A DNA stretch of 26,750 nt, from positions 1 to 26,750 of IMG/VR virus record IMGVR_UViG_3300027856_000157. One strand, 5' to 3'. Within the stretch, counting starts at the first letter, position 1. Each line of letters starts with the position of its first letter. The translations under genes were made by a program, and so were the position numbers. The DNA is from a virus. Of this stretch, positions 1,186 to 22,613 are shown one piece after another. The notes under the pieces are model-generated. The model saw nothing but the letters and a program-made list of their open reading frames with translations, was not told the origin of the DNA and made no database searches.

Positions 1186-1191
1186 TATAAT

Positions 1192-1226
1192 AAGGGCGGT
1201 AGTGTTATCAGCACTGCCGCCCTTTA
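1192..1226 (+). terminator. Rho-independent terminator-like hairpin after the gp10-like gene
   Basis: A 13-bp arm AAGGGCGGTAGTG (1192-1204) pairs with CACTGCCGCCCTT (1212-1224) with one T-G wobble around a 7-base loop. It starts 7 bases after the gp10 stop. The following tract is only weakly T-rich (TATCAAATTATT), so termination may be partial. Its position between gp10 and the homing endonuclease suggests that it either limits transcription of the inserted gene or arrived with it. Confidence 0.6.
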
Positions 1227-1251
1227 TCAAATTATTAATTGGAGTAATAAG

Positions 1252-1755
1252 ATGACAAGTGAAATTTTAACTCAAAACGAGCTAAAGAGCATACTTAAAT
1301 ACAATAGAAATACTGGCGAGTTTATTAAAAGGTTTTCCTCTGGAAGCACAAAGAAGGGAAGCATTGCTGGAACGGTCCAAAAATCTGGTTATGTTCAGAT
1401 AGAAATTAACGGTAAAGGCTACAAGGCTCACAGGTTGGCGTGGCTTTATGTGACGGGGGCGTTCCCAAGTGATCAGATCGACCACATTAACCACATTAGA
1501 TCTGATAATAGCTTTGTAAATCTTAGAGAGTGCAGCAACATTGAAAACTCAAAGAACGCAAAAATGCCAAAGAATAACACAAGTGGCTTTGTAGGAGTAA
1601 ACTTCAGTAAATCCGTTGGTAAGTGGCATGTAAGGGTTGGTGTAGACGGTGTCCGTGTTCACGTTGGTTATTTCGATTTAAAAGAAGATGCTGTATTAGC
1701 TAGAAAAAAAGCAAACGTAGAATATGGCTATCACGAAAATCACGGGGTTAGGTAA
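1252..1755 (+). CDS. HNH homing endonuclease with AP2 DNA-binding domain
   Basis: This 167-residue protein has an HNH_3-type nuclease core at about residues 57-100: H60 in YKAHRLAW, the DHIN motif at 77-80, and N90 in FVNLRE. A C-terminal AP2-like domain follows at about 110-165 (TSGFVGVNFSK, KWHVRVGVDG, GYFDLKEDAVLARKKAN). This HNH plus AP2 arrangement is typical of free-standing phage homing endonucleases, which cut a target allele lacking the gene and spread by repair. A GGAG ribosome site lies 7 bases before the ATG. The stop overlaps the next start (TAATG), so the downstream fibre gene may be translationally coupled to it. P22 has no gene between gp10 and gp26, so this is an insertion in the virion operon. 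The family call is secure; whether the nuclease is active, and its target, are unknown. Confidence 0.85.
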   Translation: MTSEILTQNELKSILKYNRNTGEFIKRFSSGSTKKGSIAGTVQKSGYVQIEINGKGYKAHRLAWLYVTGAFPSDQIDHINHIRSDNSFVNLRECSNIENSKNAKMPKNNTSGFVGVNFSKSVGKWHVRVGVDGVRVHVGYFDLKEDAVLARKKANVEYGYHENHGVR

Positions 1756-2468: not shown

Positions 2469-3029
2469 ATGGAAGAAACAAACACAAAACTTGAAGAGTC
2501 TAAATCTCTTGCCATTGTTGCGGCGGTATCATCGGTTGATATTGCTGAACGCCGTGGGAAAATTAACGCTCTTGAGTTGGCAATGCTTCAGGAAGAGCAA
2601 GTTCCTATTGATGTTAACCACCGCTTTAATGGTGGCATTTATGCGCGTGAAATTACAATTCCAAAAGGAACTTTGCTAACTGGTAGAATCCATAAATTTG
2701 ATCACTTCGATATTATGCTTAGTGGTGATATTTCTGTTTCAACCGATACCGGGGAAGTTAAGCGCCTTACTGGTTTAAATATCATGGAAGGCAAAGCTGG
2801 CAAGAAGCGAGCAGGGTACGCGCACGAAGATACACACTGGATCACGTTCCACTGTTCAGAAGAGCGTAACCCTGAAGAAATGTATGAATTTCTAACTTGC
2901 GGCTCATTTGAAGAGCTGGAAGAGTTTAACTATTTACTTGAACAAGCAATGAAGCAAATTGAGCATGATGAAGCTGTATTAACTGAATGCGCTAAAGCTA
3001 TCGTTGATAAGGGGGATTTATGTCAGTAG
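2469..3029 (+). CDS. Cupin-like phage protein (gp14 position)
   Basis: A 186-residue protein with an N-terminal helical part (1-45), a central cupin-like beta domain (about 48-130) and an acidic helical C-terminus. The central part carries NHRFNGGIYAREITIPKGT, then TGRIHKFDHFDIMLSGDISV, then GYAHEDTHWITFH, with histidines at 51, 75, 79, 119, 123 and 128. This block belongs to a cupin-like family common in podophages and other phages, usually annotated as hypothetical or cupin. The regularly placed histidines suggest metal binding. It lies in the place of P22 gp14, a small head-completion and ejection-related gene, but I see no sequence link to gp14. A TAAGG ribosome site precedes the ATG, and its 3' end overlaps the next gene by 10 bases. 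The fold call is moderate; the function is unknown. Confidence 0.6.
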   Translation: MEETNTKLEESKSLAIVAAVSSVDIAERRGKINALELAMLQEEQVPIDVNHRFNGGIYAREITIPKGTLLTGRIHKFDHFDIMLSGDISVSTDTGEVKRLTGLNIMEGKAGKKRAGYAHEDTHWITFHCSEERNPEEMYEFLTCGSFEELEEFNYLLEQAMKQIEHDEAVLTECAKAIVDKGDLCQ

Positions 3030-3709
3030 TTGCAGCGGCTGTTATTGGCTCTGCTGTTGTTGGTGGGGTGGCATCTTACCAGTCTGGTAAGGCGCAAGAG
3101 AAAGCGGCAAAGAGCGCGGCGGCTTCACAAGAAGCAATTGCTGATGAAAACGTGGCACTTCAGCGTGAATTAGCAAACCAGCAACGTGAAGACTTTGCGC
3201 CGTGGCGTGATGTTGGTGAGCAAGCATTAAATCAAATGTGGGCTGGTGTTCAGTCTGGTGAGTTTGAGGTTGGTGATATTGATGTAACCAAGGACCCTGG
3301 TTATCAATTCAGAATGGATCAGGGTATTGAGGCGCTTGATAAATCGGCGGCGGCTCGTGGTAGACTGCTTAGTGGTGCTCAGCAAAAAGGTGTTACTGAT
3401 TATTCTCAGAATGTAGCAAGCCAGGAATACGCTAACGCTTATGCTCGTGAGGCTAATGAGAAGGCGCGCAAGTACAATATGCTTTCAGGGTTGTCTTCTG
3501 GTGGCCAAGCTTCTGCTGCTGGACAAGCTCAAGCGACTAGCAACCTTGCAGGCACTACCGGAAATATTCTTTCTAACCTTGGCACATCACAAGCTCAGTC
3601 TGAATATGCACAAGGACAGGCCAGAGCTGGCGCTTATCAAGGCGTAGCTCAATCGGGAAATCAGGCAGCACAAAACTGGTTAATGTATAAAACTTTGGGG
3701 GCTTCGTAA
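3020..3709 (+). CDS. P22 gp7-like DNA transfer (ejection) protein
   Basis: The protein has 229 residues, matching the length I recall for P22 gp7. The N-terminus (SVVAAAVIGSAVVGGVASYQSG) is a hydrophobic, Gly/Ala-rich segment typical of proteins that cross or insert into the cell envelope during ejection. The body contains DPGYQFRMDQGIEALDKSAAARGRLLSGAQQKG followed by a YANAYAREANEKARKYNML stretch, which is the signature of the gp7/injection-protein family. The C-terminal third is Gly/Ala/Ser/Gln-rich with low complexity. A strong GGGGGA ribosome site lies inside the end of the upstream gene, whose stop it overlaps by 10 bases, and its own stop overlaps the next ATG (TAATG), so the cluster is tightly coupled. 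It probably travels in the capsid and helps form the DNA conduit across the envelope. Confidence 0.75.
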   Translation: MSVVAAAVIGSAVVGGVASYQSGKAQEKAAKSAAASQEAIADENVALQRELANQQREDFAPWRDVGEQALNQMWAGVQSGEFEVGDIDVTKDPGYQFRMDQGIEALDKSAAARGRLLSGAQQKGVTDYSQNVASQEYANAYAREANEKARKYNMLSGLSSGGQASAAGQAQATSNLAGTTGNILSNLGTSQAQSEYAQGQARAGAYQGVAQSGNQAAQNWLMYKTLGAS

Positions 3710-4587
3710 TGGCAGCTAATCAATATGGTATCGACTTGGGCGAGATATACCGAACCAAAGCAGCGGTTGAAGGTGCTCGCACTCAAAATAAATTATCCGG
3801 TTTAAAGCTTGGTGAAATGGAACGTGAAATTTCAGAGCGGCCAGCAAAAGAGGCGGCTGCTACTGAACGTAAAAACTTGCTTACTGGACTACGCCAAAAA
3901 GCGGTTGGTGGTGATGTTAGCGCACAGCAACAATTATTAGCCTTGGATCCTGAAGGTGGTGCAACGTTCATTGATGCTGTAACCAAGATGGATGACCGCA
4001 AGATTAAAGCAACTCAGCGATCAGTTGATGAAATGGGCCAACTTTCCGGGTACGTGCTTCAAGGAAAAACACCTGAAGAACAGGCTAGGCGTTATCAGCT
4101 AATGCGCCAGGGCGTTTCACCTGAAGTGCAATCAAAGCTACCGGAGCAATATGATCCGCAATTCATGGAACTGTCACTATCTAAAGCTATGGCAATGGAT
4201 AAGCTACTTGAAAACCCTAAAGCTATTCAGGTAGGTGGCGAAGATGTTGTTTATAAGGCTGGCCGAGAAGTTGAGCGCAAGACTCGCCCGGTTAAAACTT
4301 CCGACAATGGTTCTGATGGTGGTGGTGTTAAGTCGGCTGATGAAAGCTTGATGTATCGCCAGTCAGTTGAATTGCTTGGCGGTCTATTTGATCAGGCTGG
4401 CAATATTACCAATCTCGATCCTACTGTTAGAAACAAGGTCCAGGGTATTGCTACCGAAGCAACTAACATTTTCCGTGAAGGTGGTGTAACTCGATCACAA
4501 GCCGTTAAACAAGCGGCTCAGAAGTTTGGGCTTGAAGTTCCTGACGCTGGTAGTACAGTTGATAATGACCCTTTAGGCATTCGATGA
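3709..4587 (+). CDS. Putative internal virion/ejection protein (gp20 position)
   Basis: This 292-residue, mostly helical, charged protein has no catalytic motif that I recognise. The N-terminal 60 residues are predicted helix (GARTQNKLSGLKLGEMEREI). The middle includes TPEEQARRYQLMRQGVSPEVQSKLPEQYDP, a pattern seen in podophage proteins encoded between gp7-like and giant gp16-type genes. A Gly/Ser/Asp-rich linker at about residues 195-208 separates it from a C-terminal helical domain ending in PLGIR. It starts inside the stop of the gp7-like gene (TAATG) and is followed by a hairpin before the giant gene. Position and composition suggest an ejected internal protein like P22 gp20, but P22 gp20 is considerably longer and I see no direct similarity. 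Confidence 0.55.
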   Translation: MAANQYGIDLGEIYRTKAAVEGARTQNKLSGLKLGEMEREISERPAKEAAATERKNLLTGLRQKAVGGDVSAQQQLLALDPEGGATFIDAVTKMDDRKIKATQRSVDEMGQLSGYVLQGKTPEEQARRYQLMRQGVSPEVQSKLPEQYDPQFMELSLSKAMAMDKLLENPKAIQVGGEDVVYKAGREVERKTRPVKTSDNGSDGGGVKSADESLMYRQSVELLGGLFDQAGNITNLDPTVRNKVQGIATEATNIFREGGVTRSQAVKQAAQKFGLEVPDAGSTVDNDPLGIR

Positions 4588-4630: not shown

Positions 4631-7600
4631 GTGAGCGAGTTCATACAAAGCTTTAGAGAACAAAACCCTCAATACAATGATATGGCTGATGACCAACTGG
4701 TTACAGCTCTTCATGGTAAATACTATTCAGACATTCCCATTGAACAGTTCAATCAAAAAATTGGCTTTCAAGTCGCACCGATTGACCCGGCCGTTAGTGA
4801 TCCAGTAGCAGAGCAAGAGCCTGGTTTAATCGCACAACCAAGACCACAAGATCCTGTTTCACCTATGACTGGTTACGGTGCCTCTTCAGATATTCCACAG
4901 CAACAACCTGTTGACGGCTTTACTGGTGCCGCAATGAAGGCACCTGAAGAGCAAAGCATGTTAGAGCTTGTTAGTGGCAAGCTTAAAAACTGGGGCGCTG
5001 GCGCTGGTGAGCGAGCTGGTGACGTTGGTGGCGCATTACTTCAGACTATTGAAACGGTTGGTTCTGGACTTGAACAGAAGTTTCCTATGGGCGGCCTTGT
5101 TTGGGAAGATGGTGACATTATCCCTTCTGTACTTGGTCCTGAAGAATGGGCTAAGCGAGAAGCTAAACCGATCCTAACTAAAGGTGCTGACGTTCTTAAA
5201 GGTATTGATCTTGGCTATCAAGAAAAAGTCGGATGGGAAGACGTTAAAAAGTCATTCTCTGAAGGTGGTCCATTGTCCGGTAGCGCTTATGCTGACGTTT
5301 TAGAATACGGTCTTGAACAAGGCGTTAAGTCGGTCCCTGATATGGTGGCGGCTATTACTGCTTTGCCTGCTTACATCTTTGCCCGTTCTGGTGAGATTGG
5401 TGAACAGAGAGCCCAAAACAAAGGTAAGGAAAGTGCTGAGCTTGAAGATGTTCTTGAAGCTGCGCCTTTTGCTGTTGCCGCTTCATTGCTTGAGCGTATC
5501 GGTGCCAAAGGTATCACCCAAGCTGGAAAAGAAGAGATCGGAAAAGAAATCTTGAAAGCTGGCATTAAAGAATCAACCAAGCGTGTTGCTGCTGCTGGCG
5601 GCAAGGCCATGACCAAAGAAGCGGCCACTGAAGCAATTCAGGAAGGCATGATTGAATATGTTGGTGAACGTTACGGCACTGACGTTGCGATGGATTGGAA
5701 AGAGGCACTTGATCAGGCTGCGGCTGGCGCTGTTGCTGGTGGTGTATTTGGTGGCACTGGCGGCGGTGTTATGGCTACTGCTAACGAGATCAATTATTCA
5801 CCTGAGAAGGTTATCGCTAAGCAGCTTGAAAAAGATATTGAAGCTACTGAGGTTGTAGGCACTGAGCAAGCGGCTATTGAAGCGCTATCACCTGAACAGG
5901 CTCAAATCCAGAAAGAGCAAAAACCGCAACAAAAACAAGAACTTAAAGCAAAAGAAGGGGAAGCTAAACCTGATCCAGTAAAGCCAGTTGCAAAGCAAGA
6001 GTTTGAAATTGATAAGGCTCAAACCACTGAGCAAGATCCTGTTGCGCTTGAGCTTCCTGAAGAGAAGCCAGTTAAGCAACAAATCGTTGGCAAGGAAGTT
6101 GTTGAAGCGCCGATTGAAGAAATAGCGATTAGCGAAGACGTTCCTCAATTCAAAGAAGGCGCTAACGTTAAAGGTGTTGTTGAGCCATTGGGCGGCAAGT
6201 TTGAAAGAACTGGCGTTGCTCCTGTTCAAATATGGGTCCGTGAAGATGGTCGCAAAGAGGTGATCAGCGGTCGCCACCGTTTAGACTTAGCTGAACGTAG
6301 TGGAGAAAAAACAATCCCGGCTCAATATCATTATGAGTCTGAAGGTTTCGGAGCAGATCAGGCGGCTGTGCTTGATGCCATGCTTAATATTCGTGAAGGT
6401 CAAGGTAAGGTAAAAGATTATGTCGATTTCATCAAAGCAACAAAACCAAGAAAACAAGAAGCAGAGTCACAAGGAATACTGGCAAGGCAGACGGGCAAAC
6501 GGGCTTTCACAATCGCAACTGAAGGAAGTGATGCGCTCATTACCAGCCACCGAAACGATCAGCTAACTGACGAGGCCGCAACTCGCATAGCTGAAGCAGC
6601 ACCACGTAATGAAAAGCTTCAAGCTGTTGGTATCAAGGCCATTCAAGAAGGTAAGACTATTGCTGTTGCTGAAAACATGGTTAAAGCCGTTAAAACCATG
6701 ACAGACGAAACCGCACAGCAAAGTGGTGATCTGTTTGGTTTCGATGACTCTGCTATGGTCGAGGCTGAAAACCTGGCGAAATCAGCAGTTAAGAAACAAA
6801 ACGAAATTCAAAAAACTTTGTCGGCGGTACAAGGTGCAGCTAAGCGACCAGAGTTAGCCGCTAAAGAAGGCGTTGACGTTAAAAACCCTGAAGCTATTAA
6901 GGCCCGTATTGCTGAACTGAAAGAGCAAAAGCGTGATTGGCAAAACTGGCACACTAACCCTAAGTTAACCCAAGAGCTTAAAGCTCAACCTGAAAAGGCG
7001 GTAACTGATGAGAAGCCAGCGATCACGGAAGAAGCTAAAGCACCAGCACCAGAGCCTGCGGCGCAACCTTCACCTAAAGAGAAGGATAACTTTACCAACT
7101 GGAACGCTAAAGATAGTGAAGGCGGTCCGGCTGAGCAGTCATTCACTCGCGGCGAATATGCCAAGGCAGTAAAGAGCGACAAGGATAAAACTTTCTTTGA
7201 TGGTGGTGAAATCGAAGGAATTTCTCAAGCCAAGCAGCAAGCAAAGATTAAAGGCGTATGGCATGACTTTGGTTCTATCGTTAAAGCTGATAAGCCAGAG
7301 CCAATTAAAAAGCCAACTAAGCCAATGTCTGAAGTTGTCGAGTCTGTTAGCAAGAAGAAAGGCAAAGGCTTGACTGATGCTGATAAAGTGCCAGCGCCTA
7401 AAGCAGACTACGCCACTGAGCCAGCTCAAGCTTATCGCTCTTTTATGGAATCGGTAGCCAATCAAACCGCTACTGTTGCCGAAATTAAAGCCGATGCTGA
7501 AAGCCTGGTTAAAAACAAGGACGCTATTATTGCCAAGATGAGTGATCGCAAGTTCACCAAGGCAATGCTTCAGCAAATAACTCACTCACCACGGTCTGAT

Positions 7601-10600
7601 CTCAAAAAGCCTCAAATGGTTAAGAGCGCTTATGAGTCAATGCTCGCGGCTCACGTTATGGGTGATGCTACGTTTACCATCTTCGGCGGCTCTAAAACCT
7701 ACGAACAACAAATGATGGAGAAAATTAACAAGCAGACTCAAGCTGATGTTGACGCCGCTTATGAGAAGCAACGTGAATACCGAGCTCAAATGAAGCAGCG
7801 TAAAGACGAGTTTGTTAAATCGCTATCTAACCCGGAAACCTTACCAGAGTTTAAAGAGTTCATCCGTGTTCGCGGTAAAGACAAAATGAGCCCTGAGCAG
7901 TTGGCTGCTTATGACGAGCTTGTTGCTGAATCAATGGCAGAAGTTAAGCCTGAAGTTGTCAAAGCTGAAGCTGAAGCCGTAACCACTGAGAGAGCTCAAA
8001 CCAAGCACACTAAAACGGGTGCGGATCTGTTTGTGGTTAAAATGGTTGGCCGTGTACCTAAAGAGCAATTCAGAGAGTTAAGCGGAAAGGCTAAGCAGTT
8101 AGGCGGCTATTACTCTTCTTACTCAAAAGGTGACGCAATACCAGGATTCCAATTTAAAACGGTTGAAGCGGCTGATCAGTTTGAACAGTTGCTATCTGGC
8201 AAAGATGTGGATAAAAGCGACTTCGCAGAAGCTAAAGCTGAAGTGAAGCAGTCAAAGAATGCTGACAAGCTTCTAAATATGGCTGAAAAGATGGAAGCCA
8301 AGGCCACGGAGGAGATTAACCGACCAAGACAGGCTAACACATCAAGACGCGCTTCAATGGCCGCTAACGCCACTGAGAGAGCTGAGAAACAACTCGCTTT
8401 AGCTAAGACGGTTCGAAATATCGCGGTCAAGCTTCAGGAAGGTGAACTTAAACACCTAGGCCAAATGAGCCAGGTTACACAGCTTGAGGAGTTAATAAGC
8501 ATACAAAACAGAGCTATACCGAATGATTTGTATGAGAAAGGTTCATTTGATGGTTACACCATTAACAGGCCATTGAAAGAGGGCGTTACCGTTGAGGATT
8601 ATATTGCTAACGTTAAGTACCCATCAATAGAGGTTTACGGTTCAAATATGAAATCGTTATCAGAGAAGCTATCTGGTAAGAAGGGTTTCATGCGAATTTC
8701 AAAAGAAATACTTAAACTACCAAGCGCAAAGGCTAGGGGTGATTGGAAAGTATTAAATGACGTTCAATACAAGAAACTTTATGAGGCCGTTAAAATTGGT
8801 TTTATCAATGAGTATGATATTGGTGGTTTCGCTGTTGATAGGCATAAAACAATAGGCAGACTTGAAAAGCTAGGCATCACAACAGAGGAGCAGTTACGCG
8901 CCGCCATTCGTGAGCTTGATTCTCTTCGAGTGGCCAAGCGACAAGAGGACCCAGTTAAAAAACTAGAGCGTGATTTGGTTGGTAAGAAGATTGAAGGCTT
9001 CTTTCCTACGCCTACGCCATTAGTTGATCAGATGATTGACTATGCAGACATTAAACCAGGGCATGAGGTTTTAGAGCCTTCCGCTGGTAAAGGTAACATT
9101 GCAGATCAGATCATGGTTTCCGCGCCGGATGCCTCTCTTGATGTTGTTGAATACAACACTTCTCTTGCTTCATTGCTTGAGGTGAAAGGCTATAACGTTG
9201 TTGGTAATGACTTCCTTGAATACTCCGGCAAGCAGTATGACCGCATTGTGATGAATCCACCGTTTGAAAACTTCCAGGACATTGACCATGTAAAACATGC
9301 TTATGACCTGTTGAAGCCTGGTGGAAAACTTGTGGCTATCATGGGTGCTGGTGTGAAGAACTCGCGCAAGAAGGCGGTTGAGTTCCGTGAATGGATTGAT
9401 GATGCTGGCAGTTACATTGAAGACTTACCAGAAGGGAGCTTTAAAGGCTCAGAGCGTTCGACTGGCGTTAATACTGTAATGGTGACGATTGAGAAAAACG
9501 ACACTAACACGCTTAACTATAAGAAGGATGACAGCAAAGTTTCACCTACACCTGAAGACGGTGAACGTGTATTTCATGCGCCTGGTCATAACTTCATTGG
9601 CATGTTCCGTTCAACTGGGATACCTGAGCGCCGTGACTTTGTAACCATTGAAGGCCGAAAGTTAAAGATACCTGATGCGCCGCAACGCATTGAGCCGATC
9701 ATGAGCAAGTTGATTAAGATAACTGGCCGCCGTATTTACTTTGGAAAAATTAAAGGTAAATCTGCTGAAGGTTTCTATCGCCCCAACGTTGGCGAGATCA
9801 GAACGCGCCGCAAGAATGACGTTGAAGTATTAGCGCATGAAATGGCCCACTACCTTGATGTGTATTCAAATATCACTTTGCCTAACTTCCAAAAGCTTTA
9901 TAAAGATCCAAAGTATTCTAGTGAAGTGGCGGCGCTTAGCTATACCGATGCTGATCCGAAGATTGAAAAAATTGAAGGGTTCGCTGAGTTTGTTCGCCTA
10001 TGGCTAACGAATGCCAATGAAGCACAATTGAGAGCGCCTAAGTTTTATGATGCGTTTACCAATGAGTTAGCGCGTGATCGCAAGCTGCTTAATCCTATGC
10101 GTGATATGCAGGACCTAATGCACAAGTTCTACTTCCAGGGACCAGATAAGCTAGGCCAAGCGTTAATTGGTCAAGACGTTTCATTCAAGCAGCGTTTTAA
10201 CGAGTGGGCTTATCGCCGTGACTCGCGTATTCGTCAGCAAGTTATCGACCGTTTCCATGCAGCTAGAAAGGTTGAGCAAGAGCTAACCCGTAAAATTGGA
10301 ACCGTTGAAGAGTCAGCTTGGAAGCAATTCAGAATTGCTAATGGTGGTGCGGAAGGTATTTCTGATTACATTCTTAACTATGGCACCGTTCAATTTGACG
10401 AGAAAGGCGATCTGAAGCGTAGCGGTAAAAGCTTGCATGAAGTTATGGAGCCAGTAAAAACAATCAAGCTAAAGACTGAGCATGAAGGTGATCAGAAAAT
10501 TGATTTACTAATGCGTTATTTTGCTGGCCGCCGAGCGTTAGAGCTTCACCGCCAGAAGCGTGAAAACCTAATCCCTAAAGAAACCGCTAAGGAATGGGCT

Positions 10601-12838
10601 CGCCTTGGTAAAGATTACCCGGTGTTTGAATCTATCCAGAAAGAATACCAACAGTTTAACGATCGCATGATGGATTTTTACGAAGAGGCCGGAATGGTTA
10701 CACCTGAAGGCCGTAAAACCATGAAGTCAATGAATAAAGACTATGTGCCTTTCAACCGTATCCGTGATCAACTTGCTGGTGGTAAAGGTTCGGCTAGTGC
10801 CGGGTTCCAAAAACTTAAAGGTGGCACCGCTAACCTGAATGATATTTTAGTAAATATTCAAGACGGCATAACGGCAAACGTCCGATCAGCATTAAACAAC
10901 CGAGCCAAGCAAAGACTTTATCAATACATTTCAGGTCATAAAGACGGGGCAATTTTTGCAACCAAGATAGCGCCGGACTCTAAACCTGTTCAGGTTTACG
11001 CTGATGAAATGCAAGCTAAGATCAGTAAAGTGCTTGAGGCTAACGGAATTAAGATAGAAGGCGATCTTGATTTAGCCAGTAAAGAGCTGCTTACTTTCTG
11101 GCAACACGGTGTTGCGCCTCGCGTTAATGAGTCGGGCAATATCGTTGATTCAGTGATCATTAATGGCAAGCCTAAGTATTACGAAGTTCAAGATCCATTA
11201 CTTCAAGAAATGCTTATGTCAATGAACCCTGAAAGCTATAGCTCATTTATGAATGTGATGTTCGGTGTTAAAAACTTCTTTACCCGTACCATTACGCTAG
11301 GAATTGAGTTCACCTTGGCTAACCTGGTGCGTGATACGGTTGGCGCGACATTCCTTAGCAAGAATAACTTCAAGCCGTTTATCAGTTCGTTCCAGGGAAT
11401 GTATTCGTTTTTAGCTAAAGACAAATATTACCAGGACTTTATTCGCTCAGGCGGTGGTCACTCTAGCCGCCTTGAAGGTGCTACTCGTGACAGCCAGGCA
11501 AGACGAAGAGTCAAGCTTGATGAATTTGGCGTTATGACTGGGCCAGAAAGGTTGCTAAGCAGTATTGATAATTTAGCTAGTGCTTTTGAATATGGCACTC
11601 GCATTGGTGAATACAGACTTGCCAAGAAAAACATGAAGTCTGATATGGACGCTGGTTTTGATGCGAGAGAGATCTCCACTGACTTTAGTGTTCTTGGTGC
11701 TAACAGGTTCCTGACTGGCTTCATTCGCACAGTTCCGTTCCTAAACGCGATGGTTCAATCACTGGATCGTGTATTTAGAGAAGCGGCAGTAAGCAAGCGT
11801 TATGACGGGAACCCTACGGCTATGGCTATGAAGGCGTTTCTTGGTATTACGGTGCCGACTCTGATCCTTTATTTGGTGAATAAAGATGACGAAGATTACA
11901 AAGCAATACCGGATTACGAAAAAAGAACTAACTGGCATATTAAAATCGGTGACGGTCAGTTCGTTAAAATTCCTCGTCCTTATGATGTTGGTTTTGTTTA
12001 TGCAACGATGTTTGAGTTATTTGCAAAGTATGTAGAGGATGACAAGGGCAAAGAGTTTGCTGATGGGATGTTGTGGACCATGACGCAGATGTACGGAATT
12101 GATGGCACTCCGGCCATGATGACAGGATGGTGGGACCTGGTTAGAAATGAGAAGTGGACAGGTGCACCAGTTGTTCCGCAATCACTTTCTGATGTTGAGG
12201 CTCCTGAACAGTACACCTCAAACACAAGTGAAACCTTTGTTCGTATGGGCGAAGCTTTAGGCATAAGCCCTATCAAGGCTGAGCACATGTTTAAGGCGTA
12301 CACTGGCTATCTTGGTGGGTACTTAATGGCTGGCACTGATCACCTTCTTTGGGATGAATCCAAGTTTGGAGAGAAGCCAGATCGTAAGTTGTCGGAAAAT
12401 GTATTTTTACGCCGCTTCCTTACTCCTGATGTTCGCCCGGCAACAGCAAACATGGAGAAGTTTTTCAACCTTAAAGAGCAGTCTGATAAAATAGTTTCAA
12501 CCTTCAAGCAAACCGTTGACGTTCGCAGACAAATAAAAGGTCAGAGCGGTACTGGTAAGTTTAAGGATGACAAGTTTTACGGGTTGTCAGGCAAAGAGAA
12601 AGAAGTTCTATTTGGCCTGAATGATTCTATGAATCAGTTAATTAAGCTAATGTATGGTAAGGAAGGGATTAAAACCGCTGAGCTGAAAATTAAATATGAT
12701 AAAAATTTGTCTGGCGCTGAAAAGCGTGAACAAATGGATAAGCTATGGCTTGCCCGTAATAATGCGTTTAATAAATACTATCAACAAGCTAATCAGGCTC
12801 TACAAAAAGCCAGACGAGAAGCTAAACAGGAGAAATAA
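4631..12838 (+). CDS. Giant polyvalent ejection protein: ParB-like, adenine methylase, HExxH protease and LPD38-type domains
   Basis: The gene starts at GTG with AGGAGAG five bases upstream and encodes 2735 residues at the P22 gp16 position. Visible parts: an N-terminal virion-type head (1-45); a Gly/Ala-rich, partly hydrophobic section ending near 382; a ParB-like domain (about 500-690) with GRHR at 547-550; charged helical linkers; a polyvalent-protein helper domain near 1125-1195; a Rossmann methyltransferase (about 1457-1625) with FFPTPTP at 1457, EPSAGKGN at 1482 and the catalytic NPPF at 1542-1545; a zincin-like motif HEMAH at 1736-1740 with EGFAEF ending just after E1786; a long helical region; and an LPD38-like region (about 2195-2600) with one apolar helix (2403-2419). 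Such polyvalent proteins are known to be packaged and ejected to counter host defence. Packaging here is inferred from family and position. Confidence 0.85.
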   Translation: MSEFIQSFREQNPQYNDMADDQLVTALHGKYYSDIPIEQFNQKIGFQVAPIDPAVSDPVAEQEPGLIAQPRPQDPVSPMTGYGASSDIPQQQPVDGFTGAAMKAPEEQSMLELVSGKLKNWGAGAGERAGDVGGALLQTIETVGSGLEQKFPMGGLVWEDGDIIPSVLGPEEWAKREAKPILTKGADVLKGIDLGYQEKVGWEDVKKSFSEGGPLSGSAYADVLEYGLEQGVKSVPDMVAAITALPAYIFARSGEIGEQRAQNKGKESAELEDVLEAAPFAVAASLLERIGAKGITQAGKEEIGKEILKAGIKESTKRVAAAGGKAMTKEAATEAIQEGMIEYVGERYGTDVAMDWKEALDQAAAGAVAGGVFGGTGGGVMATANEINYSPEKVIAKQLEKDIEATEVVGTEQAAIEALSPEQAQIQKEQKPQQKQELKAKEGEAKPDPVKPVAKQEFEIDKAQTTEQDPVALELPEEKPVKQQIVGKEVVEAPIEEIAISEDVPQFKEGANVKGVVEPLGGKFERTGVAPVQIWVREDGRKEVISGRHRLDLAERSGEKTIPAQYHYESEGFGADQAAVLDAMLNIREGQGKVKDYVDFIKATKPRKQEAESQGILARQTGKRAFTIATEGSDALITSHRNDQLTDEAATRIAEAAPRNEKLQAVGIKAIQEGKTIAVAENMVKAVKTMTDETAQQSGDLFGFDDSAMVEAENLAKSAVKKQNEIQKTLSAVQGAAKRPELAAKEGVDVKNPEAIKARIAELKEQKRDWQNWHTNPKLTQELKAQPEKAVTDEKPAITEEAKAPAPEPAAQPSPKEKDNFTNWNAKDSEGGPAEQSFTRGEYAKAVKSDKDKTFFDGGEIEGISQAKQQAKIKGVWHDFGSIVKADKPEPIKKPTKPMSEVVESVSKKKGKGLTDADKVPAPKADYATEPAQAYRSFMESVANQTATVAEIKADAESLVKNKDAIIAKMSDRKFTKAMLQQITHSPRSDLKKPQMVKSAYESMLAAHVMGDATFTIFGGSKTYEQQMMEKINKQTQADVDAAYEKQREYRAQMKQRKDEFVKSLSNPETLPEFKEFIRVRGKDKMSPEQLAAYDELVAESMAEVKPEVVKAEAEAVTTERAQTKHTKTGADLFVVKMVGRVPKEQFRELSGKAKQLGGYYSSYSKGDAIPGFQFKTVEAADQFEQLLSGKDVDKSDFAEAKAEVKQSKNADKLLNMAEKMEAKATEEINRPRQANTSRRASMAANATERAEKQLALAKTVRNIAVKLQEGELKHLGQMSQVTQLEELISIQNRAIPNDLYEKGSFDGYTINRPLKEGVTVEDYIANVKYPSIEVYGSNMKSLSEKLSGKKGFMRISKEILKLPSAKARGDWKVLNDVQYKKLYEAVKIGFINEYDIGGFAVDRHKTIGRLEKLGITTEEQLRAAIRELDSLRVAKRQEDPVKKLERDLVGKKIEGFFPTPTPLVDQMIDYADIKPGHEVLEPSAGKGNIADQIMVSAPDASLDVVEYNTSLASLLEVKGYNVVGNDFLEYSGKQYDRIVMNPPFENFQDIDHVKHAYDLLKPGGKLVAIMGAGVKNSRKKAVEFREWIDDAGSYIEDLPEGSFKGSERSTGVNTVMVTIEKNDTNTLNYKKDDSKVSPTPEDGERVFHAPGHNFIGMFRSTGIPERRDFVTIEGRKLKIPDAPQRIEPIMSKLIKITGRRIYFGKIKGKSAEGFYRPNVGEIRTRRKNDVEVLAHEMAHYLDVYSNITLPNFQKLYKDPKYSSEVAALSYTDADPKIEKIEGFAEFVRLWLTNANEAQLRAPKFYDAFTNELARDRKLLNPMRDMQDLMHKFYFQGPDKLGQALIGQDVSFKQRFNEWAYRRDSRIRQQVIDRFHAARKVEQELTRKIGTVEESAWKQFRIANGGAEGISDYILNYGTVQFDEKGDLKRSGKSLHEVMEPVKTIKLKTEHEGDQKIDLLMRYFAGRRALELHRQKRENLIPKETAKEWARLGKDYPVFESIQKEYQQFNDRMMDFYEEAGMVTPEGRKTMKSMNKDYVPFNRIRDQLAGGKGSASAGFQKLKGGTANLNDILVNIQDGITANVRSALNNRAKQRLYQYISGHKDGAIFATKIAPDSKPVQVYADEMQAKISKVLEANGIKIEGDLDLASKELLTFWQHGVAPRVNESGNIVDSVIINGKPKYYEVQDPLLQEMLMSMNPESYSSFMNVMFGVKNFFTRTITLGIEFTLANLVRDTVGATFLSKNNFKPFISSFQGMYSFLAKDKYYQDFIRSGGGHSSRLEGATRDSQARRRVKLDEFGVMTGPERLLSSIDNLASAFEYGTRIGEYRLAKKNMKSDMDAGFDAREISTDFSVLGANRFLTGFIRTVPFLNAMVQSLDRVFREAAVSKRYDGNPTAMAMKAFLGITVPTLILYLVNKDDEDYKAIPDYEKRTNWHIKIGDGQFVKIPRPYDVGFVYATMFELFAKYVEDDKGKEFADGMLWTMTQMYGIDGTPAMMTGWWDLVRNEKWTGAPVVPQSLSDVEAPEQYTSNTSETFVRMGEALGISPIKAEHMFKAYTGYLGGYLMAGTDHLLWDESKFGEKPDRKLSENVFLRRFLTPDVRPATANMEKFFNLKEQSDKIVSTFKQTVDVRRQIKGQSGTGKFKDDKFYGLSGKEKEVLFGLNDSMNQLIKLMYGKEGIKTAELKIKYDKNLSGAEKREQMDKLWLARNNAFNKYYQQANQALQKARREAKQEK

Positions 12839-12839
12839 C

Positions 12840-15368
12840 ATGGCAGTCGCAATGATTGGTCCGAAGTTTTACGCTTGGGACAGAAATGGCAAGCCTCTAG
12901 CCTTTGGTAAGCTTTATACCTACCAGGCTAGAACAAACGTTCCGAAACCAACCTACCAATCTGAAGACCAGATTATTGAAAATACCAATCCGGTCATTCT
13001 AAACGGTGAGGGTTACGCCAATGTGTATTTGAGCGGCGCTTACAAAATGGTACTCAAAGACGATAAAGATAATGAAATATGGTCCTCTGATCCCGTAACT
13101 TCAGCAAGCAATGAGGAGTGGGTTAATTGCGTAAGCGCATCATATTTAGGAGTTGATACGTTTTCAATTGCAGGTAATTTTGTTGATAAATACGACAAGG
13201 GGAGAGCTGTTAGGTTATCAAATTCAGTTAGTTATTTTTATTCAACAATAAAAACGGCCTCTTACGCAGGTGGGGAGACTGTAGTTGTTGTTTCAGATCC
13301 TATAGTTCCCGTTGATCTTGCTTCGTCTTGCGTTTCAATAGTCGGTTTAAAAAGTACAAATAATGATGATAGATATTCAGTTTATTTTGATACAGTCAAT
13401 GACATGGTTAGTAATACAATTGGCGTTAACTTTAAAGATGGAATGAAAATAAAGGCTAATGGGTTTAACCAGTCGTTTGATTGTAAAGAGATTAAATATG
13501 ACGTTGTCGTTTCGACAAAATACACCGTAGACGCTGAAGGTATATTGTATTTCCGTCTTGATAATGGGTTGTATGCTGAACTCTCAGATAGAAGTTACGC
13601 ATCTACAAATCAAGCCGGAATTTTTGGCGATGAAACTGAATACCAAACAACGCACACATATAAAAACACCACGTACCAAGTAACAAAATTCACTAAAGAA
13701 AAATCGGTATCTTCCTCTTTAGAGGTGTTGATAAACAATGTAACTACTACTGAAATAGACGATGGTAATTATTATTTGGGAAATTTAGTTCGAATTAATA
13801 ACTCGCATAAGAGAATAAATTCAAACTCAAAATACACTAACAACCTAATTCACAATGCGATAGTTGTTGCTGATGGGGTTAGCGATGTTAAATTCTGTTC
13901 GGTTGGATTTACTGGGGAAATTATAGATCCACCAGTGCCACTGCCAATCACTTCTAATCCAGGCTTACAGCTTGACCCTGGTTACGTATGGTTTCAAGAC
14001 TATGCGCTTTTAGGGTACGGTGAAGCTGCAGTACAAGCAGAGGCAAACACATCTGAAAACATTGGTAGCATTGAGTTTAGCAACTGTCGTTTAATTGGTC
14101 GCGCCAACGGGTACGCAATGGATCAATCAACGGTCAACCGATTAAGAAACGTGTTCCAGTATAATGAGGTTACAAATATATGGTATCACGGTGTTGGAAC
14201 AAGAACGTGTGAGAGCTCGCTTGTTGAAAATAACGTGTTTACAAAAACACAAGTCGGGCTTGCTTATGACTCATCAACAGGATCGAAAAATTCACAGTTC
14301 CTAAATAATGTAGGCAAAGAGCTATCTGGCTTCTTTAAAGCTGAAAGCCTTGCAGGGTTTGCAAACGAGACGTTCACAGCAACGGGCAACAACATGTCAT
14401 CAGCATCTGCTGGTAATCAGCTCAGTCAATACATTTGCCGATTAACAGGAACTTACTATAATGTTTATAACAATGATTTCAACTGGTTTGATGACAAGTC
14501 AAATGTAAGCGCAGGCCTAGTGTCTTTATCTGCTGGTCAAAATAACTTTAAAAACAACAGGATCCTAATCAGCGCAAGCGTGGCACCTGTCGCGGTTTTC
14601 ACTGCATTACCGTATCACGAGGAGGGATTTACATTTTTTAATGTTGATGTGGACGACAATACGATTGAATCTAACGTGATACTACCTGTTATTCTAAACA
14701 TAAGAAATACTGGTGCAGTCTCCACATCAGACCACATGAAATTTACTGATAATAAGATTCATGGAAGCTTTCTCGTTGGAGTTACCTCTGAGCTGACATA
14801 CCCGTTAACCATTGGTGTTTTATCTGTAACTAACAATAAAACAACGGGCGGCGACTTCTTGAAAATACTAAGTGGTGCATTAACAACCACAGACATTGAG
14901 GTTAACAACAACAATCACAAATTTGATAGATCTGGAACCCTTGTAAATTTACAGCATGGTGAAATATCAAATGACGCGAGCGTAATCGGAAATGTAGCAG
15001 GGCATAAATTTGGCTTTTCTGGGTCTGATGTTGACCCTACATCGTTTGTTGAATGTCGGGTTGCGAATTTTGGTACTGATTTATTATTACAAAAGAACGT
15101 GATCGAGGTATCCAACACTCTTGCCATAATTACAAATGAACTGCCTCTTAGGGTTTCAATCACTAATAACGACTGGACATTAACAGGAACAAGCTCAAAT
15201 TCAAACAAGCTTTACTACCCCTCAGTTACTCAATATTTATCGGCTGGGAACACGCTACTTAACAGATCTGGAACCCCTGTTGTAGAAACCGTGGGAACAT
15301 TTAACTCAGAAAGAAAGGCTTTTGTTCCTGAATTTACGGGGTCAACGTATACAATAACCCAGATTTAA
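12840..15368 (+). CDS. Tailspike with P22-type head-binding N-terminus and beta-helix body
   Basis: I chose the ATG at 12840 because AGGAG lies eight bases upstream, just before the stop of the giant gene. Earlier in-frame starts would overlap that gene by over 140 bases. The protein has 842 residues. The first 100 (AWDRNGKPLAFGKLYTYQA, then PVILNGEGYANVYLSGAYKMVLKD) resemble the head-binding domain that plugs tailspikes of P22-like phages onto the tail. The rest is a long run of short Asn-rich strand-turn units (SNCRLIG, VENNVFTKTQ, LNNVGKELSG, VDDNTIESNV) typical of right-handed parallel beta-helix spikes that bind and often cleave surface polysaccharide. No catalytic residues can be assigned by eye. 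Its place as last gene of the virion operon matches P22 gene 9, and a terminator follows. It determines host surface recognition. Confidence 0.75.
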   Translation: MAVAMIGPKFYAWDRNGKPLAFGKLYTYQARTNVPKPTYQSEDQIIENTNPVILNGEGYANVYLSGAYKMVLKDDKDNEIWSSDPVTSASNEEWVNCVSASYLGVDTFSIAGNFVDKYDKGRAVRLSNSVSYFYSTIKTASYAGGETVVVVSDPIVPVDLASSCVSIVGLKSTNNDDRYSVYFDTVNDMVSNTIGVNFKDGMKIKANGFNQSFDCKEIKYDVVVSTKYTVDAEGILYFRLDNGLYAELSDRSYASTNQAGIFGDETEYQTTHTYKNTTYQVTKFTKEKSVSSSLEVLINNVTTTEIDDGNYYLGNLVRINNSHKRINSNSKYTNNLIHNAIVVADGVSDVKFCSVGFTGEIIDPPVPLPITSNPGLQLDPGYVWFQDYALLGYGEAAVQAEANTSENIGSIEFSNCRLIGRANGYAMDQSTVNRLRNVFQYNEVTNIWYHGVGTRTCESSLVENNVFTKTQVGLAYDSSTGSKNSQFLNNVGKELSGFFKAESLAGFANETFTATGNNMSSASAGNQLSQYICRLTGTYYNVYNNDFNWFDDKSNVSAGLVSLSAGQNNFKNNRILISASVAPVAVFTALPYHEEGFTFFNVDVDDNTIESNVILPVILNIRNTGAVSTSDHMKFTDNKIHGSFLVGVTSELTYPLTIGVLSVTNNKTTGGDFLKILSGALTTTDIEVNNNNHKFDRSGTLVNLQHGEISNDASVIGNVAGHKFGFSGSDVDPTSFVECRVANFGTDLLLQKNVIEVSNTLAIITNELPLRVSITNNDWTLTGTSSNSNKLYYPSVTQYLSAGNTLLNRSGTPVVETVGTFNSERKAFVPEFTGSTYTITQI

Positions 15369-19647: not shown

Positions 19648-20106
19648 ATGGATATTAAAAACAAAGGTGATTTAATCCAGGCGTTCGTTAATAAGTCTGA
19701 AGAAGTTCAGCGCTTAAATGATCAGCTTGGCGCGGCAGACTCACAACTTAGTGATCTGTATGAAGCTATCGCAACAGATGAAAATCTGATGGAACTTGTT
19801 CATGCTGGTGGTATTGCTACGGCTGGCGGTGAGCTAATCATTTTCAATAACAGCAGTGAAGAGCTTGTTATCTGCAAGTGCATTTCAAGTTATACCATTA
19901 AAGACGAGCTCAGCGCTGAACAGCTTGGTATCGTCAATGGTTACAAGACTGTTAGTGATGCTTGGTTTAATGCCGCTAAGAAAGAGCTTGAGTATTCAGA
20001 AACAACACTTGAGAAGCTTCTTGATAAAGTCGGCAAAGAAGGTTGCAAGTTATCTGAAGAGCAACTTGAAACACTTACTAAAGCTGAGGGTCGTGGCAAT
20101 GAGTAA
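19648..20106 (+). CDS. Hypothetical early protein with coiled-coil ends
   Basis: I chose the ATG at 19648 because GAAGG lies eight bases upstream; an in-frame GTG at 19639 overlaps that ribosome site. The protein has 152 residues. It begins with a helical stretch (DLIQAFVNKSEEVQRLNDQLGAADSQL), has a central beta-like part (GGIATAGGELIIFNN, SEELVICKCISSYTI), and ends with a charged helix. No family is recognised. It follows the small membrane protein by one base and overlaps the Erf gene by eight bases, so it is co-expressed with the recombination genes. Confidence 0.6.
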   Translation: MDIKNKGDLIQAFVNKSEEVQRLNDQLGAADSQLSDLYEAIATDENLMELVHAGGIATAGGELIIFNNSSEELVICKCISSYTIKDELSAEQLGIVNGYKTVSDAWFNAAKKELEYSETTLEKLLDKVGKEGCKLSEEQLETLTKAEGRGNE

Positions 20107-20854
20107 CGGCGAATTAGTTACAAGTGATCAGCAATCATCACTTCCGGTTATGGCACAGCCGCACATGCGCCTAATTGAAATTGCAGTGAATAACGGCGCT
20201 GACATTACTCAGCTTGAAAAGCTTATGGATCTTCAAGAGCGCTATGAAGCAAACCAGGCTAAGAAAGAGTTCAACGCTGCAATGTCTAAGTTTCAGGCAA
20301 TGCTTCCGGTAATTGAAAAGCTTGGCATTGTTGATTACACAACTTCAAAAGGTCGCACGTTCTACCAGTACGCCAAGATTGAAGATATTGCTAAGGCAAT
20401 TCAGCCAGCGTTAAAAGAAACAGGCCTGTCTTACCGCTTCACGCAAAGCCAGGATAACGGAATTATCACCGTTCGCTGTATCGTTACGCACCAGAGCGGC
20501 CACTCAGAATACAGTGAGTTGGTATCTTCCCCTGATATTAGCGGCGGCAAGGATCAGCTTAAAAGTATCGCTTCGGCAATTTCATACCTTCGCCGTTATA
20601 CATTGACTGGTATCTTGGGGATTGTTGTCGGTGGTGAAGACGATGACGGCGATTCTGTTCAGTACGATAACCAGGAACAGCAAAAGCCTGTTAACTGCTA
20701 CCCGGATGAAGAATTTAATAAAAACTTCCCGGCCTGGTCTAAAAAAATAACTGATGGTAAGCACACAGTTGACTCGCTACACCAATTCTTGACTAAGAAG
20801 AACATTATCCTTAGCCAAGACCAATACTCAAAATTACAACAAGTAGGAAAGTAG
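20099..20854 (+). CDS. erf: Erf-family single-strand annealing recombinase
   Basis: I chose the ATG at 20099, overlapping the upstream stop; a far upstream in-frame start at 19856 would overlap that gene by 250 bases. The protein has 251 residues. The ERF core is clear: KKEFNAAMSKFQAMLP, then GIVDYTTSKGRTFYQYAKIEDI, IQPALKETGLSYRF and IASAISYLRRYTLTGILGIV, followed by an acidic GGEDDDGD patch and a C-terminal helical domain. Erf of P22 binds single-stranded ends and anneals them, allowing circularisation of the injected genome. The adjacent exonuclease gene would produce the single-stranded tails, so the two form an annealase-exonuclease pair like lambda Bet and Exo. Confidence 0.92.
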   Translation: MSNGELVTSDQQSSLPVMAQPHMRLIEIAVNNGADITQLEKLMDLQERYEANQAKKEFNAAMSKFQAMLPVIEKLGIVDYTTSKGRTFYQYAKIEDIAKAIQPALKETGLSYRFTQSQDNGIITVRCIVTHQSGHSEYSELVSSPDISGGKDQLKSIASAISYLRRYTLTGILGIVVGGEDDDGDSVQYDNQEQQKPVNCYPDEEFNKNFPAWSKKITDGKHTVDSLHQFLTKKNIILSQDQYSKLQQVGK

Positions 20855-20855
20855 A

Positions 20856-22613
20856 ATGCAATTATTCAAAGTAGAACAAGGTACACCGGAATGGCACGAA
20901 CTTCGTGACACTCACTTAACCGCTTCTGATGCTTCGGCAATGATGGGCGCAAGCAAGTACAAAAGCCGCACTCAGCTAATGAAAGAAAAGAAGTTTGGTG
21001 TTAAGGAGAAGATCACTCCGGCTAAACAATCGCTTTTCGACAAGGGCCACGCAGCAGAAGACGCAGCTCGTGATCTTCTTGAGGTTGATATGCTTGAGTC
21101 ATTCGCCCCGGTTGTTGGTGGTATCGAGATTGACGGCTTAAAGCTACTCGCTTCACTGGATGGTCTATCAGAAGATCAGCAAATGGTATTCGAGCACAAG
21201 CTTTGGAATGAAACGCTTGCTGAAAATGTTCGCAATAACGTGCTTGAAGATACTCACTACTGGCAGTTAGAGCACCAGCTTCTTGTATCCGGCGCTGAAA
21301 ATGCTTTGTTTATGACTTCAGACGGCACAGCAGATAAACGCGAATACATGCACTACATTTCAATCCCTGAACGCCGTGAGCAGTTAATCGCTGGATGGAA
21401 GCAGTTCAATAAAGATCTCGAGTCTTTTGAAATGGAAGCTAAAAAAGAAGTTGTTGTTGCTGAAAAAACTAGCCTGCCAGCTATTTCATACAGCGTAACA
21501 GGTACAGAGATCACCACTAACATTGCTATGTGTCTTGACCAAATCAAAACAATGGCCAGTGAAGAAATGAGCAAGGTCCTGGAAACAGATCAGGACTTCG
21601 CCGACAAGGACCAGCTTAACAAAGATGTTAAGAAGGCTCGCGCCGGGCTCAAAGATATGATCGCCAAGGTTCGCGGCGAGTTTGTTAGCTACTCACAGTT
21701 TGAAGAAATCGCTCAAGAAATGGATGGTGTTCTTCAGCAAATGCAAAGCCACGGAGAGAAGCAAGTTAAGCAAGCCAAAGAAGCTAAGAAGCAAGCTATC
21801 TGGACTGAAGCCGATAACAACCTTCGTCAACATATCGCTGAATGTGATGATAAATTAAAACCAATGCTGTTAGCTGGCATCATGGGCGCGTTTACTCCTG
21901 ATTGGGCTGGCGCAATGAAGAACAAGCGCACCATTGAAAGCTTAACCAATTCTGTATCTGAAGAGCTGGCTAAGTGGAAGGTAGAGATTAATCAGGTAAT
22001 GGACCGTGTTGTTCCTAACCTTCAATACCTTCGTGAACATGCAGCGGATTACAAATTTTTATTCTCTGATGCTCAGCAGCTAGTTAACCAGGACGCTGAA
22101 CCATTTCAGGCGATAATCAAATCACGCATTGCTGATCACAAGCAAGCTGAAGAAGAGCGACTTGAAGCTGAACGCAAGCGCATTCAAAAAGAAGAAGAGG
22201 AAAAGGCTCAACGTGAAGCTGAAGCCAAAGCAGAGGCAGAGCGTGAACGTATCCGCAAGGAAGAACGCGCCAAGGCTCAAGCTGAAGAGCAAGCTAAACG
22301 TGAGCAGGAAGAAACTGACCGTTTACAGCGTGAAGCAGAAGAGAAGGCTAAGCAGCCAGAGGATTCTACTCCTGAAGTAACTGAAAGTGATTTCATTTCA
22401 GAGGTTCTTTCTAATAACGAAGCCATTAACCCAGGACTTAAAAAGTTCACCGTTCAAGTTGAGTGGTCCGGCTATTCTCGTGGTTACTCAGTTTATGAAG
22501 TTGAAGCTGAAGATGAAGAAGCAGCTAAAGAACTTTATTCTAAAGGCAGTAGACTTGAGCATGTTGTTGTTCGTGATGACACTGAATCTCAAGAAGTGAA
22601 TATCATTAAGTAA
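20856..22613 (+). CDS. YqaJ/lambda-exonuclease-type nuclease fused to a long coiled-coil (DUF1351-like) region
   Basis: The gene starts one base after the Erf stop with AGGAA upstream, and encodes 585 residues. Residues 1-190 are a YqaJ-type PD-(D/E)XK nuclease: QGTPEWHELR at 8-17, TASDASAMMG at 22-31, E68 in KGHAAEDAA, D102 in LASLDGL, the E-x-K pair E113/K115 in FEHKL, and the Q137/H140/Q141 helix. The rest of the usual exonuclease ends near 200. It continues with a helical region (about 200-420) resembling DUF1351-type phage proteins, a highly charged Glu/Arg/Lys coiled coil (about 425-510), and a small terminal beta-alpha domain (KKFTVQVEWSGYSRG). The nuclease presumably resects 5' ends for Erf. 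Being about three times the length of lambda Exo makes this a notable fusion; the boundary and the DUF1351 assignment are approximate. Confidence 0.82.
   Translation: MQLFKVEQGTPEWHELRDTHLTASDASAMMGASKYKSRTQLMKEKKFGVKEKITPAKQSLFDKGHAAEDAARDLLEVDMLESFAPVVGGIEIDGLKLLASLDGLSEDQQMVFEHKLWNETLAENVRNNVLEDTHYWQLEHQLLVSGAENALFMTSDGTADKREYMHYISIPERREQLIAGWKQFNKDLESFEMEAKKEVVVAEKTSLPAISYSVTGTEITTNIAMCLDQIKTMASEEMSKVLETDQDFADKDQLNKDVKKARAGLKDMIAKVRGEFVSYSQFEEIAQEMDGVLQQMQSHGEKQVKQAKEAKKQAIWTEADNNLRQHIAECDDKLKPMLLAGIMGAFTPDWAGAMKNKRTIESLTNSVSEELAKWKVEINQVMDRVVPNLQYLREHAADYKFLFSDAQQLVNQDAEPFQAIIKSRIADHKQAEEERLEAERKRIQKEEEEKAQREAEAKAEAERERIRKEERAKAQAEEQAKREQEETDRLQREAEEKAKQPEDSTPEVTESDFISEVLSNNEAINPGLKKFTVQVEWSGYSRGYSVYEVEAEDEEAAKELYSKGSRLEHVVVRDDTESQEVNIIK

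Follow-up and report, generated by a model that had tools for sequence, protein, structure and literature searches.

Introduction

Phage polyvalent proteins were described as a class by Iyer et al. in 2017 (PMC5512222), and N6-adenine methylases of the type considered below, TP motif included, are among the domains that they are reported to carry. The same source states that P1 DdrB is cleaved before packaging and that the N4 virion RNA polymerase (vRNAP) is packaged uncleaved. N4 gp50 is described as being ejected together with gp51 and gp52 (PMC12633501). In CsCl-purified virions of Burkholderia phage JC1, gp69 was reported with 51 unique peptides and 15.6% coverage, gp67 and gp68, encoded upstream of it, were also detected, and an LPD38 domain was recorded in gp69 by the JC1 authors (PMC9144972). 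P22 encodes gp7, gp20 and gp16 in this order, with 229, 471 and 609 aa.

The window analysed here is a virus record of 26,750 bases (IMGVR_UViG_3300027856_000157) from a marine, P22-related phage of the Shewanella X14 / Vibrio 1.211.A / Thalassomonas BA3 group. A preliminary description, made from the sequence alone, had placed a 2735-residue protein in its gp16 ejection slot, with a ParB-like domain, a methyltransferase, a zincin-type motif and an LPD38-type C-terminus in one chain. We refer to this product as the giant protein.

Gene order and the ejection slot

The genes of this region run in the order gp10-like head closure gene (phrog_578), HNH gene, 233-aa gene, phrog_12032 gene, gp7 homologue, 292-aa gene, giant gene and tail fibre/spike gene. 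An AGGAG lies 7 nt upstream of the start of the giant ORF, and at the 3' end its last codons contain the AGGAG that serves the next gene. The features used below are the following.

3020 to 3709, plus strand: gp7 homologue (DNA ejection), phrog_598
3709 to 4587, plus strand: gp20-slot protein, 292 aa, phrog_36852
4631 to 12838, plus strand: giant gp16-slot protein, 2735 aa, GTG start, no internal stop
4631 to 4771, plus strand: N-terminal tag, aa 1-47, common to otherwise unrelated proteins
4772 to 6064, plus strand: variable linker, aa 48-478, dN/dS 0.17-0.46 and identity 44-90% in six pairs
6065 to 6970, plus strand: ParB-like stretch, aa 479-780, invariant GRHR at 547
6971 to 7330, plus strand: hypervariable spacer, aa 781-900, 23-28% identity in L036/L024
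7331 to 8800, plus strand: conserved cargo region, aa 901-1390
8801 to 9520, plus strand: predicted gamma-class N6-adenine DNA methyltransferase, aa 1391-1630, with FPTP, PSAGKG (1483) and NPPF (1542)
9521 to 10168, plus strand: zincin-like region, aa 1631-1846, HEMAH at 9836-9850, EGFAEF at aa 1782
10169 to 12835, plus strand: C-terminal module, aa 1847-2735, about 890 residues, LPD38 at 11888-12406
11698 to 12838, plus strand: stretch of the giant gene with remnants behind a DNA-transfer-type gene in 1.184.A and L127
12840 to 15368, plus strand: tail fibre/spike gene, phrog_26190, directly downstream of the giant gene

P22 gp7 matches phrog_598, the family of the gp7 homologue in the window, and the giant gene directly follows the gp7 and gp20-slot genes, as gp16 does in P22. 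The intact ORF and the P22-like gene order thus bear out the assignment to the gp16 slot, and the statement that the protein is over four times the size of a gp16 of about 600 residues holds as well (2735 against 609 aa, a factor of 4.5). In hhalign comparisons, no significant profile similarity is found between the C-terminal module and P22 gp16 (probability 0.1-0.2), and the gp20-slot protein is colinear with P22 gp20 at a level that is not significant (probability 2.4, E 0.02). Therefore, the slot is positional. A search of the whole giant protein against the phrog families does not match phrog_770.

Two further observations concern the surrounding genes. The HNH endonuclease gene (1252-1755; phrog_99, HNH_3) follows the gp10-like gene, and 1.184.A has about 20 bases in its place (window 1187-1736, L005 11284-11303). 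At 19856-22613, an ERF single-strand annealing protein is followed by a YqaJ/RecE-like exonuclease; this recombination module may aid mosaic exchanges.

With the giant protein as query, tblastn finds some similarity in 268 phage records, 19 of which cover at least 80%, and one scan of IMG/VR gives 34 loci. The giant protein had been presented as an oddity of one phage; these 19 records and the description of the class in 2017 (PMC5512222) speak against this. Its close homologues, in Shewanella phage X14, Vibrio phages 1.183.O, 1.211.A, D478 and FGH, V. crassostreae phages and Thalassomonas phage BA3, are 77-95% identical over 84-100% of its length. Several homologues are annotated as DNA methylase and others as hypothetical. 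The slot is the same in 1.211.A and BA3, the two maps read. At 18 of 20 loci of the gp20-slot protein, a tagged giant protein or its cut beginning follows; the remaining two have a 1894-aa untagged giant protein (L140) and a DNA-transfer-type protein (L127). The first ~196 residues of the gp20-slot protein are constant, and the remainder is altered where the giant protein is exchanged.

The C-terminal module and the zincin-like region

The LPD38-type C-terminus of the preliminary description is confirmed by Pfam with E 5.6e-46 at aa 2420-2592 of 2735. The profile of the whole module has relatives in at least 576 IMG/VR stretches. The best 80 of these loci contain 63 complete ORFs of 906-4167 aa (61 distinct sequences), the 906-aa ORF being a broken frame of a contig already counted as L019. 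In 61 of the 63, the module ends at most 60 residues from the C-terminus. Upstream of it, NPP[FYW] occurs in 22 of the same 63 ORFs, and HExxH occurs anywhere in 38 of them, some of both by chance in such long chains. LPD38 is also present in 6 of 274 bacterial genomes of one class, versus none of 14 controls.

The module profile matches JC1 gp69 (4515 aa) with E 2.2e-50 in a small set; the two proteins are distant, their best BLAST piece being 18% identical. The detection of gp69 in virions is the strongest evidence that the giant protein could be packaged, by way of this distant homology. Our literature searches turned up no proteomic study of virions from this phage or from a close relative, and the term 'mass spectrometry' is absent from the X14 paper (PMC9011153).

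Comparisons of the module with P22 gp16, P22 gp20, the 819-aa family described below and the N4 gp50 C-terminal domain give hhalign probabilities of at most 0.4. An N4 gp50 match (E 0.0014, one target) disappeared with a deeper profile and was dropped. A PDB profile search with the module gives nothing credible (best E 0.03). The AlphaFold models of the two halves of the giant protein are poor (mean pLDDT 50.7 and 53.8), and Foldseek with the C-terminal one finds no match at E 0.001 or better.

In the zincin-like region, HEMAH at aa 1736 or close variants, together with the downstream EGFAEF, are kept in all 10 aligned rows. Fold comparison yields lethal-factor-type structures (Z 5.5, rmsd 2.6-2.8, 88-89 residues aligned), and unrelated helical structures score equally well. 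Hence the zincin-type motif claimed earlier stands as a conserved HExxH...E pattern, and the fold match is weak.

The methylase and the ParB-like stretch

The methyltransferase claim is well supported, and we predict an N6-adenine activity of the TaqI/EcoKI type. Pfam matches MTS at aa 1478-1573 (E 1.4e-5), and the methylase part of the predicted model superposes on M.TaqI with Z 14.6 and rmsd 3.0 over 151 aligned residues, in a model that is poor overall. The top Foldseek matches of the methylase model are a type I M subunit and M.TaqI, and the methylase profile matches P1 DarB with E 5e-7 in a set of about 50 proteins. The three motifs FPTP, PSAGKG and NPPF are unchanged in 10 of 10 aligned relatives, L032 being outside this alignment. 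Neither a helicase nor an RNA polymerase domain appears among the Pfam matches of the giant protein up to E 1. Methylase, zincin motif and LPD38 all lie within the one ORF, in agreement with the several domains in one chain of the preliminary description.

The ParB-like domain fares differently. The stretch was likened to ParB by its GRHR motif. This motif is invariant in 9 of 9 aligned rows, and this part of the claim stands; searches of Pfam, PDB profiles, phage and plasmid proteins and P1 DdrB give no ParB family match, and the low-confidence model of the stretch (pLDDT below 50 there) gives no match to a ParB fold. Among the named domains, Pfam matches LPD38 and the methyltransferase, and ParB is without a match. 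P1 DdrB itself matches the stretch weakly (E 0.005, one target), outside the GRHR motif.

The ParB-like stretch is found in only six phage records (X14, 1.211.A/B, D478, 1.183.O) and in three bacterial relatives from unannotated contigs (L329-L331). In the Gayadomonas genome (L331; G003:C7:940226-940705), it lies in a giant frame running towards an LPD38 match, which sits in an untagged open frame of 3648 aa; the two frames are probably one protein. The giant protein of a Methylophaga MAG (L330 4027-12606) starts with EFxxKAAPLNPxxSxxxLxxYW, a different short motif, in two copies; this may be a second type of N-terminal tag.

The N-terminal tag

The first ~47 residues of the giant protein follow a consensus around RxxxPQYxDMxDxxLaxALHxKyYsDiP, which we call the tag. 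It occurs at the extreme N-terminus (alignment start at or before residue 11) of 106 of 5698 ORFs, 105 of them at E 1e-10 or better and 73 distinct by their first 200 residues. These figures are not a frequency, since most loci were fetched as motif carriers or close relatives; the position of the tag, not its count, is the informative part. In the 105 tag carriers of more than 250 aa, the sequence past residue 70 sorts into 11 groups with no detectable similarity to one another. The shorter complete carriers have 339-927 aa, and Pfam on 10 group representatives gives no family above the cut-off.

Some tagged proteins have surroundings like those in the window. In L106, a tagged 828-aa protein follows phrog_34170/12032, gp7 (phrog_598) and a 512-aa gene, in the order of the window. 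A phrog_578 gene lies upstream in L081 and L117. In L080, the upstream 1609-aa protein matches endolysin, tape-measure and 'tail injection transglycosylase' families.

Among named phages, 21-22 records contain the tag. It is present in 13 of the 63 complete module carriers (best 80 of at least 576 loci) and missing from P22 gp16, from VvAW1 and JC1, and from the proteins of 1.184.A and 4_4512, so it is a requirement of neither the slot nor the class. The 274 bacterial genomes of one class contain no tag, in a search that had no positive control.

Cargo exchange and selection

In some relatives both ends of the giant protein are present and the part at about 438-1623 is not. L038 and L041 retain residues 1 to ~437 and 1624-2735, with nothing of the sequence between; such cargo-free giants have about 1700 aa. 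In L032, ~1054-1464 is absent, and what remains of the methylase is only 32% identical to that of the window. In this remnant (about aa 930-1090; frame 6001-12576), FPTP, PSAGKG and NPPF are all gone, with zincin and C-terminal module intact; by its motifs, L032 appears to be a natural catalytic knock-out inside an otherwise well-kept giant protein. Methylation would therefore be dispensable in at least one relative.

Other relatives vary within the cargo. L023 and L033 have ~320 extra residues around 784-924, with a SprT-like match below the cut-off, and BA3, L021 and L022 have other sequence at ~480-900. In L036 and L024, the regions flanking the hypervariable spacer are 73-85% identical. 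Between the window and 1.211.A, dS is 1.13 in the linker versus 0.25 in the adjoining ParB-like stretch, a sign of recombination.

We calculated dN/dS in six pairs, four close (L028, L026, 1.211.A, L025) and two more distant, and every region measured is under purifying selection. Among the large regions, constraint in the four close pairs is strongest on the zincin-like region (0.006-0.03), the C-terminal module (0.036-0.051) and the ParB-like stretch (0.03-0.06). The methylase gives 0.15-0.23 in these pairs and 0.09-0.14 in the two more distant ones, near the values of the other regions.

Exchange of the slot protein

Vibrio phage 1.184.A (L005) shares the backbone of the window, including phrog_26190 of the tail fibre gene, and the similarity ends at window 4296, inside the gp20-slot gene. 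What follows is a 419-aa gp20-slot protein (first 195 residues phrog_36852), an 819-aa protein and two remnants of the giant gene. The first remnant corresponds to window 11706-11834 (87% identity, E 2.6e-38) and the second to window 12654-13130 (giant part 12654-12838); they are joined through a 13-base overlap, and the second holds the ribosome site of the tail fibre gene. L127 has the same exchange at nearly the same junction, with a 247-base relic of 97.6% identity up to the contig end, and the near identity of the junctions suggests that they possibly derive from one inherited event. The frame of the L127 relic (6824-7070) stays open for 84 codons, as far as the contig reaches, and could yield an expressed short LPD38 piece.

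With 29.7% identity over 81%, the 819-aa protein resembles a 'DNA transfer protein' that Aeromonas phage 4_4512 encodes after its gp7 (phrog_598) and gp20 (phrog_917). Neither the 819-aa family (hhalign 0.6) nor the 4_4512 protein shows detectable similarity to P22 gp16, so that 'gp16-type' denotes position and annotation here; Pfam gives no family above the cut-off for the 819-aa protein. From these alignments, the giant protein and a protein of ~820 aa appear to have taken each other's place, each with its own C-terminal part of the gp20-slot partner, and the relic in the 1.184.A lineage implies that the giant protein was there first. Since relatives exchange it with a DNA-transfer-type protein, the giant protein is probably injected too.

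According to the X14 authors (PMC9011153), 1.184.A is the only one among 11 genomes without the methyltransferase. The phage has a separate annotated DNA N6-adenine methyltransferase gene at L005 21746-22303, which might make up for the loss.

Discussion

We propose, with a probability of roughly 0.65, that the giant protein is the third ejection protein (gp16 slot) of this phage and a polyvalent protein with fixed delivery ends and exchangeable cargo, whose methylase acts on the entering DNA. The ejection position given in the preliminary description agrees with the P22 synteny, the slot exchange in two relatives and the distant homologue with the same C-terminal module in virions. We infer from the synteny, the exchange with a DNA-transfer-type gene and JC1 gp69 that the protein is probably ejected, and its packaging in the virion is very probable.

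The N-terminal tag of ~45 residues and the zincin-like region with the LPD38 module would be the delivery parts, building the giant protein into the particle, and the middle (about 438-1623) would be the exchangeable cargo, here the ParB-like stretch and the N6-adenine methylase. At infection, the giant protein and the gp7 and gp20-slot proteins would exit the head together, before the DNA or along with it, and the zincin may cut the cargo loose. The ParB-like part perhaps holds the methylase to the entering DNA, its putative substrate, and modification of this DNA would blunt host restriction. We put the anti-restriction role forward as a suggestion that falls a little short of even odds; the delivered anti-defence device of the preliminary description is thus supported in part, by the slot and the several domains in one chain.

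The main task of a packaged and ejected giant protein could instead be mechanical, namely a trans-envelope channel or DNA entry as for P22 gp16 or the N4 ejectosome, with the methylase and ParB-like parts as secondary passengers. This is a serious possibility, though clearly less probable than the proposed delivery of a working methylase. It accommodates the cargo-free forms of ~1700 aa, the kept ends and degenerate methylase of L032, the occupation of the slot by a DNA-transfer-type protein, and the stronger constraint on the C-terminal module and zincin than on the methylase in the four close pairs. However, FPTP, PSAGKG and NPPF are kept in 10 of 10 rows (L032 not included) at a methylase dN/dS of 0.09-0.23, the ParB-like stretch is as constrained as the C-terminal module in close pairs, and a methylase recurs, with a helicase, in VvAW1. 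The methylase motifs and the ParB-like constraint imply that both parts are kept for use in most relatives.

Instead of processing its own chain, the zincin might be an effector that is injected to act on proteins of the host, and we consider this similarly possible and similarly short of the favoured alternative. N4 vRNAP keeps its HExxH domain and yet is reported to be packaged unprocessed (PMC5512222, PMC12633501), consistent with such an effector. The zincin stays with the C-terminal module where other cargo is lost, however, and its retention in cargo-less forms fits a role in the module's own life; processing was also proposed by Iyer et al. (PMC5512222). That the giant protein is not packaged, and works late inside the cell as a methylase or regulator on progeny DNA, is improbable: the X14 authors place the homologue in a transcriptional regulation module (PMC9011153) and several relatives are annotated as DNA methylase, but the gene sits among ejection genes, exchanges with a DNA-transfer-type protein, and encodes an LPD38 module common to the virion protein JC1 gp69 and a tag common to proteins in the same slot.

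Returning to the proposed ejection protein with exchangeable cargo, we tentatively suggest, at rather less than even odds, a plug-in delivery chassis in some P22-like and related podophages. The tag and/or the zincin-LPD38 module might bring any chain set between them into the head and then into the host, and the cargo, or the whole slot protein with the C-terminal part of its gp20-slot partner, might be swapped as cassettes. To a specialist, the new points would be the exchanged slot with the relic left behind and the N-terminal tag common to otherwise unrelated proteins; we met no description of either in the open-access literature, as judged by titles and abstracts. A gene filed under 'DNA methylase', 'hypothetical' or 'transcriptional regulation' thereby becomes a likely injected protein. 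The relatives offer natural experiments, with the slot exchanged and with the cargo present, degenerate or absent between fixed ends, and the choice of head contents by P22-type phages and the freedom of their cargo become testable.

Comparison with known systems

Judged by its domains, the giant protein belongs to the phage polyvalent proteins, a kind already known, and homology to JC1 gp69 points to its delivery. As in that class, unrelated enzymatic domains and an LPD domain are combined in one chain, encoded among late virion genes. The gp1 of Vibrio phage VvAW1 (3640 aa, 'DarB-like antirestriction') occupies the same slot and has the zincin and the C-terminal module, with 37% identity over 1651-2730. 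It differs in having no N-terminal tag and a cargo of Eco57I-type methylase and ResIII/SNF2 helicase. JC1 gp69 likewise has the C-terminal LPD38 module and a methylase and is placed after two virion proteins, but it is much larger (4515 aa), carries a lytic transglycosylase and a COG4646 methylase-helicase in addition, and has no tag.

P1 DarB contains a related N6-adenine methylase (profile E 5e-7, about 50 proteins), and the delivery of a methylase with the DNA, as discussed for P1 (PMC5512222, PMC9144972), matches the role proposed here. Unlike DarB, the giant protein has no SNF2-type helicase in its chain. Its C-terminal module matches DarB and DdrB at chance level (E 0.07-0.6) and P1 DarA in a weak and short manner (E 0.005-0.007, three-protein set). 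The proteins of P22 (gp16), 1.184.A and 4_4512 share its slot after the gp7 and gp20-slot genes, whereas they have 609-832 aa, no profile similarity to it and no tag.

N4 gp50, the virion RNA polymerase of 3500 aa, stands in the same small-medium-giant order of ejection genes, and its layout of enzyme, HExxH domain and large helical C-terminus (PMC12633501) is that of the giant protein. The cargo of gp50 is an RNA polymerase, and the two C-termini have no significant similarity; by analogy of layout, N4 gp50 can be regarded as the nearest well-studied parallel to the giant protein.
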